A stretch of DNA of 64,000 nucleotides, from assembly GCF_000526315.1 (NCBI RefSeq), contig NZ_JAFV01000001.1, positions 3,288,501 through 3,352,500 on the forward strand. Direction: 5' to 3'. This document shows, one piece after another, positions 25,656 to 34,418 of the stretch (positions are counted from its first letter, which is position 1; every line of letters starts with the position of its first letter). The translations under genes were made by a program, and so were the position numbers. The DNA is from Methylopila sp. 73B. Its GTDB lineage: Bacteria; Pseudomonadota; Alphaproteobacteria; Rhizobiales; Methylopilaceae. The notes below the pieces were generated by a model. It was not told the origin of the DNA, did not search any database, and worked only from the letters and a program-made list of their open reading frames with translations.

Positions 25656-27506
25656 ATGCCGACGTCCTTCGACGTCATCGTGGTGGGCGGCGGTCATGCG
25701 GGCTGCGAAGCGGCGGCGGCGTCCGCCCGCACCGGCGCCGCGACCGCGCTCGTCACGCACAGGGCCGACACGATCGGCGCCATGTCGTGCAATCCGGCGA
25801 TCGGCGGGCTCGGCAAGGGTCATCTGGTCCGCGAGATCGACGCGCTGGACGGGCTGATGGGCCGCGTGGCGGACGCGGGCGGCATCCAGTTTCGAGTGCT
25901 TAACCGGCGCAAGGGGCCGGCCGTCCGCGGGCCGCGCGCGCAGGCTGACCGCAAGCTCTACGCCGCCGCCATGCAAGCCGCGCTCGCCGCGCAGCCCAAT
26001 CTCACGATCATAGAGGCCGAAGTCGACGACCTGATCGTCGCGCAGGACCACGTCGCCGGCGTCGTCACGGGCGATGGACGGCGCATCGCGGCCGGCGCCG
26101 TGGTGCTGACCACGGGCACCTTCCTCCGAGGGCTGATCCACATCGGCGACCGCACGATCCCGGCGGGACGCGTCGGCGAGGCGCCGGCGCTTGGCCTGTC
26201 GAAGCGGCTCGCCGCGACGGGGCTCGCGTTGGGGCGGCTGAAGACCGGCACCCCTCCCCGGCTGGACGGCCGAACCATCGATTTCGCGGCGCTCGAGGAG
26301 CAGCCGGGCGATGCGCCGCCCGAACCGTTCTCGACGCTGACTTCGGCGATCACAACGCCTCAGACGGTGTGCCACGTCACCCGAACGACGCCTGAGACCC
26401 ACGCGATTATCCGCGCCAACATCGCGCGCTCGCCGATGTACTCCGGCCAGATCGAGAGCCGCGGCCCGCGCTACTGCCCCTCGATCGAGGACAAGGTGGT
26501 GCGCTTCGGCGATCGCGAAAGCCACCAGATCTTTCTTGAGCCGGAAGGCCTCGACGACCCGACCGTCTACCCCAACGGCATCTCCACCTCGCTGCCCGAG
26601 GACGTACAGCTTGCGCTCGTCCGATCGATCCCCGGGCTGGAGCGCGTCGAGATCCTGCGGCCGGGCTACGCCATCGAGTACGACCACGTCGACCCGCGCG
26701 AGCTCGATCCGGCGCTGGAGGTGAAACGGCTTCCCGGGCTTTTTCTTGCGGGTCAGATCAACGGCACGACGGGCTACGAAGAGGCGGCGGCGCAGGGTCT
26801 GCTGGCCGGGCTCAACGCGGCGCGGCGTTCCGCCCGGCAGGAGGGCGCCACCTTCGACCGATCCGAGGCCTATCTCGGCGTCATGGTGGACGACCTTGTC
26901 ACCCGCGGCGTGACCGAGCCCTACCGGATGTTCACCTCGCGCGCCGAGTACCGCCTCAGCCTGCGCGCCGACAACGCCGACCTGCGGCTGACCTCCCGAG
27001 GCGAAGCGCTGGGCTGCGTCGGCGCCGCGCGTTCGGCGGCGTTCACCGCCAAGGCCGGCGCGCTCGCCGCCGCTGAGGCGTTGACCCGCGGGCTCGCGAT
27101 CACGCCCACGGAGGCCGCCCGCCAGGGCGTGCACGTGAACCACGACGGCCGCCGCCGGAGCGCCTTTGAGCTGCTGTCGCTTCCGGACGTTGGGCGCGAG
27201 GAGCTGGTGCGGCTGTGGCCGGAAATTGCGTCGATCGAGCCTGCGACCTTCGCCCAGCTCCAGATCGAGGCGTCCTACGCCGTGTACCTCGACCGTCAGG
27301 AGGCGGACATCCGCCGCTTCCGCGCCGAGGAGCACGCGACGATCCCGGGCGACATCGACTACGCCGCCCTCCCCGGCCTGTCGGCGGAGCTGCGCAACAA
27401 GCTCGTGGCGGTCTCTCCGAGAACGCTGGGCCAGGCCGGACGCATCGAGGGCATGACGCCGGCCGCCCTCACGCTAATCGCGGCGCGCGCCCGGCGCGCG
27501 GCGTGA
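25656..27506 (+). CDS. mnmG: tRNA uridine-5-carboxymethylaminomethyl enzyme MnmG
   Basis: A 616-residue FAD-dependent enzyme that acts as a complex with MnmE on wobble uridine. The FAD-binding dinucleotide fold is at the N-terminus ([16 protein letters not shown]), followed by [36 protein letters not shown] and the conserved YCPSIEDK. C-terminal motifs [13 protein letters not shown] and [18 protein letters not shown] are present. The length is normal. It belongs to the mnmE-mnmG-rsmG-parA-parB block of the origin region. Confidence 0.98.
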
Positions 27507-28264: not shown

Positions 28265-29089
<825 letters not shown>

Positions 29090-29111
29090 CGGGACCTTTG
29101 AAAGGATGAGC

Positions 29112-29984
29112 ATGGCGGACGAGCCCTCCCGGTCGCGCTTGGGGCGCGGCCTCGCGGCGCTGATCGGCGACGTCGCCGACGAAGGCGCGGTGGTCGAGCG
29201 GTCCCGCGGCCAGCGCCGCGCGCCGATCGCCCATCTCCGGCCGAACCCCGCGAACCCGCGCCGTCATTTCAACGAAGCCGACCTCGACGACCTCGCGGCC
29301 TCGGTGCGCGAGAAGGGCGTGCTGCAGCCGATCTTGGTGCGGCGCGCGGCGAGCGGAACGGAGCAGTTCGAGATCATCGCGGGCGAACGGCGCTGGCGCG
29401 CGGCGCAGCGGGCCGGGGTGCATGACGCGCCGATCGTCATCCTCGACGTTACCGAGCGGGAGGCGCTGGAGATCGCGATCGTCGAGAACGTCCAGCGAGC
29501 GGATCTCAACGCCATCGACGAGGCCGTCGGCTACGAGCAACTGATGACGCAGTTCTCCTACCGGCAGGAGGACCTTGCTCGCGTCATCGGCAAGAGCCGC
29601 AGCCACATCGCGAACACGCTGCGGCTGACCAAGCTGCCGGAGAGCGTGAAGACCCATGTGCTGAACGGCTCGCTAACCGCCGGCCACGCCCGCGCCCTGC
29701 TCGCGCTCGATGACCCCTCCTCCGCCGCAGAGAAGGCCGTCGCGAAGGGGCTGTCGGTGCGCGAAGTCGAGGCCATGGCCCGCGCGCCCGAGGTGAAGTC
29801 GGTCGACGGCGCCCGCCGGGCGAAGCCTGAGAAGGACGCCGACGCACGCGCTCTGGAGGAGGCTCTCTCGGAAGCGTTGGGCCTCGCCGTGACGCTGAAG
29901 CCAAAGGGCCAGGGCGGCGAGCTCGTCATCCGCTATGCCGATCTCGAGCAACTCGACATGGTGGCGGCGCGCCTGAAGGGATAA
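29112..29984 (+). CDS. parB: Chromosome partitioning CTPase/DNA-binding protein ParB
   Basis: A 290-residue protein from the ATG at 29112 (MADEPSRSRLGRGLAALIGD), with an in-frame ATG six bases upstream. The N-terminal ParA-binding peptide (SRLGRGLAALIG) is followed by the CTP-binding domain with GERRWRAAQRAG, a helix-turn-helix with IGKSRSHIANTLRL, and a C-terminal dimerisation domain. It binds the two parS sites 2-4 kb upstream. The usual downstream gene holA is here on the opposite strand, after an AT-richer patch. Confidence 0.97.
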   Translation: MADEPSRSRLGRGLAALIGDVADEGAVVERSRGQRRAPIAHLRPNPANPRRHFNEADLDDLAASVREKGVLQPILVRRAASGTEQFEIIAGERRWRAAQRAGVHDAPIVILDVTEREALEIAIVENVQRADLNAIDEAVGYEQLMTQFSYRQEDLARVIGKSRSHIANTLRLTKLPESVKTHVLNGSLTAGHARALLALDDPSSAAEKAVAKGLSVREVEAMARAPEVKSVDGARRAKPEKDADARALEEALSEALGLAVTLKPKGQGGELVIRYADLEQLDMVAARLKG

Positions 29985-31943: not shown

Positions 31944-33239
31944 TCAGTACGGCATGGTCCGCGCCGGCGCGCTGCCGGTCGTCAGCGGCTCCGTTTCCGC
32001 CGTCTGGGCCGGCGCAAGCTCGGGCTCGCGGAAGTCCACCACCACGCCCGGCGCGACCAGATGGGCGAGCTCGTCGGCGTCCCAGTTGGTCAGGCGCACG
32101 CAGCCGTGGCTGTTGGTCTTGTCGATGCGGGAGGGCTCCGGCGTGCCATGCAGGCCGTAGGTCGGCTTGTCCAGGCCGATCCAGACCGCGCCGACGGGCG
32201 CGTTCGGGCCGGGCGGCAGGCGCAGCGCCTTAGTGTTGTTGCCCTGCTGAAAGTTGACCTTGGGCCGGTACCAGTACTCGGGATTGATCGCGATCGCCTT
32301 CACGGCGTGAACGCCGGTCGGCGAGGGCAGATCCGAGCTGCCGATCGTGGCGGGGTAAGCCACGACGATCTTGCCGGCGGCGTCGAAACCGAACAGTTGC
32401 TTGCGGCCCTTGTCGGCGACGATGCTCGCGACCTTCACGGTCTGCTTGCGGCCGGGGTTCGCCACCATGATCTCCGACCCGACCGCGAAGAAGTCGACAT
32501 CTGGATTTAGCCGGCGAAGGAAACTCTCGTCCATGTGGAAGCGCTCGGCGAGCATCTCGGTCGGGTCGCGATAGGACGAGCCGGGGAGCAGCGCCTGCTC
32601 GGCGTAATCGTCCGGCATCACCGGCACGAACGGGCCGGCGACGTCCTTCTCGGTGATGACGTAGGGAACCAGCACGGGTTCGGTCGAGGTGGCCTCGAGC
32701 TTCGCCCAGAGCTCGGCGTCCATCACCCCGTCAATGGGATGCCCCACCATCATCTCGAAGGCGGCGATCGCCTTGGCGACGTTGCCGCCGTTGATGCCGT
32801 CGATGACGCCGGGGGAGGCGTGCGCGCGGTCGAGCAGCACCTGCAGCTTGATCATCCGCGGATCGGAGTGCTGGCCGCGCGGGTAGGGATCGCTCGTGAA
32901 CACCGCGTCGTTCGCGAGCGCGATCAGCAGGTCCACCGGGTAGCTGTCGATCGGGGTCGCGGCGGCGCGGGGCGCGGCGGGTCGCGCCGCGGGCGCGACG
33001 GCGGGCGCCGAGGGCTCCACGACGGGAGCGGCAAGCGGCGGCTCGACCGCGGAGTTTTGCGCGATCATGCCGGCGATCGCGTCGCGCTCCGCCGCCTGCG
33101 CGGCGGTCGCCACGAGCGCGAGGGCGATGACGGTCGCCGCCTTAAGCGAGGTGTGAGCCACGAGCGCGAGGGCGATGACGGTCGCCGCCTTAAGCGAGGT
33201 GTGAGCCACGGGGCCCTCTCTTCGTAAGTCGCCGGACAC
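31944..33239 (-). CDS. L,D-transpeptidase (YkuD domain) with duplicated signal segment
   Basis: A secreted enzyme of up to 431 residues that cross-links peptidoglycan or attaches proteins to it. The catalytic motif is SHGCVRLTN with Cys380 (YkuD domain about 265-410), preceded by a peptidoglycan-binding-like helix region (IAAFEMMVGHPIDGVMDAELW, about 150-175). The N-terminus contains a perfect tandem repeat of 16 residues (VAHTSLKAATVIALAL, twice) from a 48-bp DNA duplication at 33111-33206. Starts are possible at ATG 33239, GTG 33209 and GTG 33161; the last would give a normal 27-residue signal peptide ending AQA. Confidence 0.92.
   Translation of the reverse strand: MSGDLRREGPVAHTSLKAATVIALALVAHTSLKAATVIALALVATAAQAAERDAIAGMIAQNSAVEPPLAAPVVEPSAPAVAPAARPAAPRAAATPIDSYPVDLLIALANDAVFTSDPYPRGQHSDPRMIKLQVLLDRAHASPGVIDGINGGNVAKAIAAFEMMVGHPIDGVMDAELWAKLEATSTEPVLVPYVITEKDVAGPFVPVMPDDYAEQALLPGSSYRDPTEMLAERFHMDESFLRRLNPDVDFFAVGSEIMVANPGRKQTVKVASIVADKGRKQLFGFDAAGKIVVAYPATIGSSDLPSPTGVHAVKAIAINPEYWYRPKVNFQQGNNTKALRLPPGPNAPVGAVWIGLDKPTYGLHGTPEPSRIDKTNSHGCVRLTNWDADELAHLVAPGVVVDFREPELAPAQTAETEPLTTGSAPARTMPY
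33111..33206. repeat. Perfect 48-bp tandem duplication in the transpeptidase signal peptide
   Basis: Two identical 48-bp units (33111-33158 and 33159-33206), each starting CACGAGCGCGAGGGCGATGA on the plus strand. The unit is 16 codons, so the frame is kept. Each copy brings a GTG that could start translation. Identity is complete, which points to a recent event or an assembly error. Confidence 0.97.
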
Positions 33240-33382
33240 GCCGACGCCTCGTCACCATCCTCGGTTAGGGTAAACAAATTATCGCACTTTACGGTCAGAT
33301 CGTAACGATCCCGCGATCAAATTGGGTGTCTTAAACGGTCTGTTAAGCATAATAGATCGGCAGGATGATGTTCGACCCCAAA

Positions 33383-33464
33383 GAACGAATCGAGATTGGT
33401 CAGTAAATCGCGATTCGTTCACGGAGAACGAATCGAAGACTTCAATGGACTTCCTGATTCGTTC
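33383..33464. promoter_or_regulatory. Four-copy alternating decamer array (putative operator)
   Basis: GAACGAATCG occurs at 33383-33392 and 33426-33435, and its reverse complement CGATTCGTTC at 33411-33420 and (with one mismatch, TGATTCGTTC) at 33455-33464. Centres are 28, 15 and 29 bp apart, so the array is nearly symmetrical. The inner pair is a perfect inverted repeat with a five-base spacer. This fits binding by a dimeric or tetrameric regulator not identified in the window. Confidence 0.7.
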
Positions 33465-33504
33465 CGCAGTCACGGGTAGCACTGCCTTGACCGGAAAGGT
33501 TTCA

Positions 33505-33512
33505 TTAACCAT
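33505..33512 (+). promoter_or_regulatory. CtrA half-site
   Basis: TTAACCAT, the described CtrA half-site consensus in alphaproteobacteria, 123 bp upstream of the YiiX-like start. An eight-base match can arise by chance, but such AT-rich words are rare in this GC-rich window. Confidence 0.45.
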
Positions 33513-33635
33513 AAAAGCCGAAACCGCGGCGGAGGCCGCAAGCCTTCAGTCTTGGGCGAGCGTCTGCGGCGAGACTGGAGGTTCGAGCAGGCCGCGCCGA
33601 CGAGCGCGGCCCGTCGTCGACGGGGGGGCCGCGTC

Positions 33636-34418
33636 ATGGATTGGATCGGCAACGCCGTCGGCCGGCGTCTGGTGACCTATCTCACGGAGGAGATCCGGGG
33701 CCGGCCCGAGACGGCCTATGATCCGGCGCGCCTGCGCGAGACGCTGGAGATCGGCGACGTGATCCTGATCGCCGGCCGCAGCCGCGTCTCCGGCGTGATC
33801 CGCCGCATGACCTCGTCGGTGTGGTCGCACGCCGTGCTCTACGTCGGGGATATGCTCGACGTCCACGCGGCGGACGGCGAGCGCCACACGCTGGTGGAGA
33901 TGGAGCTCGGAATCGGCTGCGCCTCGGCGCCGCTGTCGAAATACGCGACAGAGCATATCCGCATCTGCCGCCCGTTCGATCTCGACCTGTGCGAACGCGA
34001 GCAGGTCGCGCGGTTCTGCATCCTGCGTCTGGGCTATGAGTACGACGTCAAGAACGTGCTCGACCTGCTGCGCTACTGCACGCCGATCCCGCTGGTGTCG
34101 GCGCGCCTGCGTCGGCGGATGCTGTCGCTCGGTTCGGGCCTGCCGACGCGGGCGATCTGCTCGTCGCTGATCGCCCGCGCCTTCGAGCGGGTGCGCTACC
34201 CCATCCTGCCGCGGGTCGAGACCATCGCCGATCACGGCGAGCGGCATGAGATCCTGCACATCCGCCACGACTCGCTCTACATGCCGCGCGACTTCGACAT
34301 CTCGCCCTACTTCGAGATCGTGAAGCCGGCGCTCGTCCGCGGCTTCGACTATCGCAAGGTGGAGTGGGCCGAGCGCCGCGTCCAGGCGCGGGGCGCCCGG
34401 TCGCAGCCGGCGGAGTGA
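33636..34418 (+). CDS. YiiX/YebB-like permuted papain-fold protein (NlpC/P60 superfamily)
   Basis: A 260-residue cytoplasmic protein. The start at 33636 (MDWIGNAVGRRL) is the ATG nearest the recognisable domain. Permuted papain-like features: GDVILIAGRSRVSG followed by SVWSHAVLYVGDM with catalytic His65, an acidic residue in TLVEME, and catalytic Cys175 in TRAICSSLIARAF. YiiX-like enzymes are thought to hydrolyse amide or thioester bonds in peptidoglycan or lipids. The upstream region has CtrA-like and repeated operator-like sites, hinting at cell-cycle control. Convergent with the MBL-fold gene, 4 bp apart. Confidence 0.82.
   Translation: MDWIGNAVGRRLVTYLTEEIRGRPETAYDPARLRETLEIGDVILIAGRSRVSGVIRRMTSSVWSHAVLYVGDMLDVHAADGERHTLVEMELGIGCASAPLSKYATEHIRICRPFDLDLCEREQVARFCILRLGYEYDVKNVLDLLRYCTPIPLVSARLRRRMLSLGSGLPTRAICSSLIARAFERVRYPILPRVETIADHGERHEILHIRHDSLYMPRDFDISPYFEIVKPALVRGFDYRKVEWAERRVQARGARSQPAE

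Follow-up and report, generated by a model that had tools for sequence, protein, structure and literature searches.

In most Alphaproteobacteria gene control is tied to replication through GcrA and CcrM, and to our knowledge there are few sites where the layout shared by CcrM and another DNA-binding protein is both strict and conserved. Dam-dependent switches of enterobacteria, such as opvAB and agn43 with OxyR and pap with Lrp, are built from repeated protein half-sites that contain methylation sites. The recognition sequence of CcrM is GANTC (PMC5172544, PMC7987155, PMC3973325), which is described as under-represented in alphaproteobacterial genomes (PMC3973325). Binding of GcrA depends on methylated GANTC (PMC3667746), and YGAKTCK was proposed as its extended motif in Caulobacter and is unconfirmed in Brevundimonas (PMC7987155). 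MucR shields promoter GANTC from CcrM, for example in the Caulobacter promoter P169, which has four GANTC, with local hypomethylation as the outcome (PMC5172544).

The window, which is the whole stretch of 64,000 nucleotides of Methylopila sp. 73B that was analysed, contains an array of four alternating copies of the decamer GAACGAATCG, and GANTC is found inside every copy. The array resembles the Dam switches in having putative protein half-sites that overlap methylation sites and differs from them in the methylase and in the organisms. With MucR-shielded promoters such as P169 it shares the presence of several GANTC in one region (PMC5172544), but no consensus is known for MucR (PMC7987155), whereas the array has a strict repeated word and fixed spacing. 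Promoters under GcrA and CcrM are similar in that the reverse complement of the third copy, F2, carries CGATTCG in all 13 genus genomes, which fits YGAKTCK, and in that genes for both proteins are present (PMC3667746, PMC7987155); they differ in that the array keeps TTCGTTC where GANTC is lost, has a rigid multi-site layout and persists in two genomes where no gene lies downstream of it. The repABC modules of Agrobacterium also have groups of GANTC in intergenic control regions, where methylation matters, but they belong to plasmid-type replication genes, none of which is seen beside the array, and the cited part of that work reports no common repeated word (PMC11514494). In CtrA half-site promoters of Caulobacter a TTAA-type half-site co-occurs with GANTC, as at the array (PMC4287350). 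A promoter under CtrA would have either a full site, TTAA-N7-TTAA, or a TTAA half-site close to where transcription starts, and a CtrA-like role at the array is predicted from its sequence. The array is probably a composite protein-binding control element that overlaps CcrM sites and lies beside a CtrA-like half-site, and it is probably coupled to the cell cycle or to methylation.

Sequence and conservation of the array

The four decamers are placed, oriented and spaced as the first-pass annotation had described them, including the single mismatch in the fourth copy, with centre-to-centre distances of 28, 15 and 29 bp (Table 1). Its remark that the region is richer in AT is also borne out, since 100-bp bins of the window's own genome (G000) have a GC fraction of 0.44 and 0.48 in the core, 0.55 in the preceding bin and 0.68-0.76 in six others. 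No sigma-70-like promoter was found within 33200-33700.

Table 1. Features around the array, in window coordinates
Feature	Position	Strand	Remarks
F1, outermost forward copy of GAACGAATCG	33383..33392	+	exact; GANTC 33387-33391
R1 copy	33411..33420	-	exact; conserved core TTCGTTC 33414-33420; GANTC 33412-33416
F2 copy of GAACGAATCG	33426..33435	+	exact; invariant in 13/13; GANTC 33430-33434
R2 copy	33455..33464	-	one mismatch; core TTCGTTC 33458-33464; GANTC 33456-33460
TTAACCAT, CtrA-like half-site	33505..33512	+	TTAAC conserved; CtrA half-site predicted
TTAAGCAT, second CtrA-like site, opposite side of array	33343..33350	+	similar word in 6/13
YiiX-like (NlpC/P60-type) cysteine hydrolase gene	33636..34418	+	ATG 33636; start shared by nine aligned orthologues
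Divergent L,D-transpeptidase gene	31944..33239	-	longest reading frame, start provisional; YkuD domain

Matches to GAACGAATCG with at most one mismatch number 11 in the 64-kb window against 8.24 expected from shuffles, and a count of 11 or more occurs in 19 of 100 shuffles. Over the whole window there is thus no enrichment of the word, but four of these 11 near-matches are packed into 82 bp, and it is confirmed that the four-copy array exceeds chance. The 9-mer GAACGAATC occurs 18 times in the whole genome (4.38 Mb, two contigs), four times inside the array, and at one of the 14 remaining places (L019, a helicase locus) a second half-site lies within 100 bp. Among 97 exact 7-bp half-sites (GAACGAA/TTCGTTC) in 1.2 Mb of three genomes, no pair is found within 60 bp, and when the 161 bp around the array are searched against the DNA of the own genome, a single copy is found.

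GANTC occurs 73 times in the window compared with 333 in shuffles, and nowhere in the window is it more tightly clustered than in the array, with four per 100 bp where the next best cluster has two. Across the 13 genomes each 176-bp array has 4-11 GANTC, compared with 1.14 per kb in a genome sample, and none of the 1,418 GANTC sites in 400-kb samples of G000 (457), G007 (505) and G004 (456) starts a 100-bp stretch with four. Dinucleotide shuffles, in which GANTC is not depleted, have on average 4.16 GANTC in their densest 100 bp (maximum 5), and a Poisson estimate gives 0.5 clusters of four GANTC in 75 bp per genome at the sampled rate and 7 at the doubled rate, so four GANTC in the window species alone prove little and the argument rests on conservation. 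A CcrM orthologue of 372 aa, which matches 6pbd with E 8.8e-158, is encoded in the own genome, the only one searched for it, and the GcrA family is encoded in 13 of 13 genus genomes.

A sequence-only model, the alignment of which contains 11 arrays (those of G003 and G001 are not included, and the G003 array is read from L027), detects the array in 13 of 13 genomes of the Methylopila/Hansschlegelia genus with E from 4e-7 to 3e-26, and has no match in five genomes that belong to the family but to other genera. Searching with the intergenic DNA alone retrieves the array from three of the 13, the own genome counted, and a pattern search shows the exact palindromic core also in G004, G005 and G006, among the matches listed. 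An array at the same spot in relatives and rare elsewhere is the outcome that the first-pass annotation had named as support for an operator, and since this outcome is observed, a protein-binding array is well supported.

The layout is rigid in all 13 genomes and consists of TTCGTTC-N5/6-GAACGAATCG, followed by TTCGTTC at 32 bp and TTAAC at 78-79 bp from the start of GAACGAATCG. Counted from the TTCGTTC of R1, F2 lies at +12/+13, the TTCGTTC of R2 at +44/+45 and TTAAC at +90 to +92. The spacer between R1 and F2 is 6 instead of 5 in G003 and G001, and R2 and TTAAC are displaced by one as well, so the distances from F2 stay 32 and 78-79. F2 is unchanged in all 13 genomes. Of 12 genomes scanned for F1, three close species have the 9-mer in exact form, G011 and G003 have a degraded copy, and in seven it is not seen at its place. 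The symmetrical arrangement that had been pointed out earlier is thus true of the window, but the 28-15-29 symmetry is restricted to three close species, and what the relatives keep is the order R1-F2-R2-TTAAC. Relative to the R1 core, six of the 13 genomes have a word similar to TTAAGCAT at -67 to -71, and beyond TTAAC no conservation is visible by eye across 12 stacked arrays. The core words are invariant and the intervening bases vary; invariant short words at fixed distances, free bases between them and changing gene settings are the pattern left by protein binding, and the conserved element most likely binds a putative protein. TTAAC, which keeps a fixed distance in 13 of 13 genomes, is a candidate CtrA half-site.

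GANTC is kept in 13 of 13 genomes at F2, in 10 at R2 and in six at R1, and GAACGAA/TTCGTTC is kept at all three places in all 13. The better conservation of the latter indicates that GAACGAA/TTCGTTC is the half-site and that GANTC overlaps it, and the methylation sites might be partly incidental. The presence of GANTC in every copy, the poor conservation of F1 and a related element at a helicase gene are features beyond those of the first-pass annotation.

Related element upstream of a helicase gene

The second matches of the model in the genus lie upstream of the same SUV3-like helicase gene at 10 of 11 loci (L232-L242, one per genome), and a DUF3108 gene is found near the helicase gene at these loci. 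In G007 the domains are a Suv3-type helicase (PF22527) and DUF3108 (PF11306). The second match of G006 (L239) has no helicase gene beside it, and copies at the helicase locus were looked for in the genus genomes other than G003, G006 and G010.

Outside the family the model matches 20 of the 103 remaining genomes at E <=0.01, a limit at which about one chance match is expected and with E-values that are rough for such models. Going by named relatives, the order is Hyphomicrobiales. The 17 loci considered come from the matched genomes other than G030, G061 and G097, and were found by the sequence model alone, without reference to the helicase gene. The same gene lies downstream at 13 of the 17, in eight families, and is absent at L215, L221, L225 and L230.

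The helicase copies share the order GAACGAA, CGATTCG, TTCGTTC, although single letters differ in some, as in CTCCGTTC, which replaces TTCGTTC in G009, and AACAAA or TTTGTTC in some other families. TTAAC is seen near some of them. By hand count, the distance from GAACGAA to TTCGTTC is 32 bp at the window site compared with 42-43 bp in the helicase copies of G036 and G000, which is longer by about one helical turn. Array-like units can stand in tandem upstream of the helicase gene, with positions in helicase orientation: two in G007 (L232, from 1979 and 2165, about 186 bp apart) and three in G040 (L220, from 1541, 1747 and 1949, about 202-206 bp apart). Where the helicase arrays are compared row by row, extra copies are best-scoring positions, of which low-scoring rows may be due to chance, and the model matches are the ones relied on.

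At L217, L218, L222 and L226 a word similar to CACCANATNTNG precedes, near 1500, the helicase arrays of other families. This word presumably recalls an NrdR box.

Gene settings of the array and competing explanations

The YiiX-like gene, to which the first-pass annotation had linked the array, is present in 9 of the 13 genus genomes and absent from G001, G004, G005 and G006, while the array is present in all 13, so the link is not supported in that form. In all nine genomes with the gene the array words lie about 165-270 bp upstream of it, and its ATG lies about 210-240 bp past the array core despite a differing upstream neighbour, which is the L,D-transpeptidase gene in G000, G002 and G008 and, by eye, the end of pheT in G012. 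The genome of G004 is 88% complete with 5% contamination, which makes the absence there less sure. The four genomes that lack the gene do not form one clade on a tree built from ParB+HemE, and the absences need three changes, two of which are forced by well-supported branches; the tree is unrooted and does not by itself show which changes are losses, and the absences are read as losses. In G005 (L075) a short frame that resembles the first codons of the YiiX-like gene lies about 190-220 bp past the array core, which fits a loss of the gene there. Two arrays lie between convergent genes. The array of G001 is flanked by the end of pheT and the end of a succinate dehydrogenase iron-sulfur gene, and that of G006 by an antiporter gene and by the end of a gene in the opposite orientation; these neighbours are named from their translations and not by family searches. 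As the array is kept without the YiiX-like gene, it is not simply the operator of that gene.

Control of the L,D-transpeptidase gene is unlikely because this neighbour is seen only in three close species. The reading frame of this gene contains an exact 48-bp tandem duplication (33109-33204), in frame near the N-terminus, which is a single copy in the corresponding stretches of G002 and G008.

In the reading that we favour, a putative DNA-binding protein would recognise GAACGAA/TTCGTTC, present as an inverted pair 5-6 bp apart and as a third half-site farther on. These half-sites overlap GANTC, the methylation site of CcrM, with the CtrA-like TTAAC half-site at a fixed distance, and owing to the overlap, protein binding and CcrM methylation probably compete or depend on each other. 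The state of the element could follow DNA replication and the cell cycle, a coupling suggested by the overlap with CcrM sites and by the CtrA-like half-site, and GcrA may be the reader. Protein binding, the relevance of methylation and the action of CtrA and GcrA at the array are all predictions from its sequence. The YiiX-like hydrolase gene would most likely be driven by the array in 9 of 13 species, and the persistence of the array form without this gene suggests that it serves a different target or has an independent role.

A wider proposal, which is tentative, is that the element represents an undescribed class of cis-element of the order, of the form GAACGAA...TTCGTTC, often with GATTCG between and, at the window site, TTAAC beyond. 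It would be read by a putative protein whose half-sites overlap CcrM sites, and might act as a methylation-gated, replication-timed switch, throughout the order at the SUV3-like helicase gene and in the genus also at a second site, not tied to a gene, which lies next to the YiiX-like gene in most species. Limited searches of the open-access literature gave no description of the element, which is weak evidence of absence; the cited part of PMC2877005, which concerns GcrA, a helicase and Rhizobiales, contains no description of it, and nothing in the literature on the word GATTCGTTC looks related by title, among the matches listed. If this reading of the element is right, the array would be a small, directly testable case of the reading of methylation marks at a defined site outside Caulobacter, and the copy at the helicase gene would extend such testing to other families of the order.

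The rival readings overlap, and their odds need not sum to one. A cell-cycle promoter made of known parts, in which GcrA reads methylated CGATTCG, CtrA reads TTAAC and no further protein takes part, is rather unlikely. It agrees with the YGAKTCK-type word in F2 and the TTAAC half-site, both found in 13 of 13 genomes, and with the presence of GcrA in all of them and of CcrM in the own genome; however, R1 keeps TTCGTTC without GANTC in 7 of 13, so something seems to read the GAACGAA part, and two arrays have no downstream gene in the same direction before a convergent gene. A plain operator or activator array that serves the YiiX-like gene only, with methylation playing no role, is unlikely and is rejected as the full story. 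The similar distance to the ATG in 9 of 13 genomes and the short frame behind the array of G005 speak for it, but the array is intact in four genomes that lack the gene and are not one clade, lies between convergent genes in G001 and G006, and has a related counterpart at the helicase gene of other families. The persistence of the array in all 13 genomes without a fixed gene, including the convergent settings, would also be expected of an autonomous chromosomal site without a promoter role, for example one for titration or timing, where replication is sensed by way of hemimethylation, and the array is indeed near hemE or parB in G000, G002, G008, G004 and G012. We consider such a site improbable, because 1.43 Mb separate the array from parB in G007, because the array and hemE/parB are on different contigs in G003, G006 and G011, and because the related element is consistently upstream of the helicase gene, as part of a promoter would be.

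Hairpins in RNA, either stem-loops of a transcript or a small RNA, are very unlikely to account for the element. The 95-nt array stretch folds better than 200 of 200 shuffles (z -4.33), but of 18 arm pairs in 11 sequences 16 never vary, so they do not test this reading, and the two that vary never change in both arms and fail to pair in 5 and 1 sequences. Seen by eye, the window's inner stem is disrupted in G002 and G008, Rfam has no match near the arrays and only a tRNA elsewhere in the window, and the lack of visible conservation beyond TTAAC in the 12 stacked arrays speaks against a small RNA. Least credible of all is a replication origin or a dispersed, REP-like repeat. In G000 the distance of the array is 3-4 kb to parB and about 35 kb to hemE, with parA and parB at 28265-29984, 3-5 kb before the array, and strand-biased word counts, which are too few to use, hint at an origin of G000 somewhere near 3 Mb, which is also the region of the array. 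In G007, however, hemE is at 2.15 Mb, parB at 2.22 Mb and the array at 3.65 Mb, and the sampled GC skew, which is noisy in the three genomes sampled and too noisy to use in G000, changes from negative values to positive ones at about 2.03-2.23 Mb, away from the array. The DnaA box TTATCCACA is matched with at most one mismatch only at window positions 26134 and 52665, neither by the array, and identity with oriC is unlikely on these grounds. A dispersed palindromic repeat of the REP/BIME type would have many copies, whereas the own genome has one DNA copy and the exact 9-mer gives only two clustered loci.

The YiiX-like protein and its homologues outside the genus

The YiiX-like protein has no Pfam match and is weakly similar (E 0.069, far below the cut-off) to the NCBIfam YaeF family permuted papain-like enzyme. 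Burkholderia plasmid genes whose products share 45% identity with it are annotated as YiiX/YebB-like N1pC/P60 family cysteine hydrolase, and a weak profile match links it to the solved cysteine peptidase 3kw0 (E 0.006). YiiX homologues outside the genus come from 87 genomes, and at the 21 loci read among them no array is seen; these have 0 to 2 GANTC in the 450 bp upstream, with one or two in 18 of the 21. Upstream of these homologues a GANTC lies at a steady distance in two other families: in the family f20 it is at -148 to -152 in all eight loci read (L102-L105, L107, L108, L110 and L113), and in one genus of the family f35 it is at -112 to -116 in five of eight loci (L094 and L097-L100).
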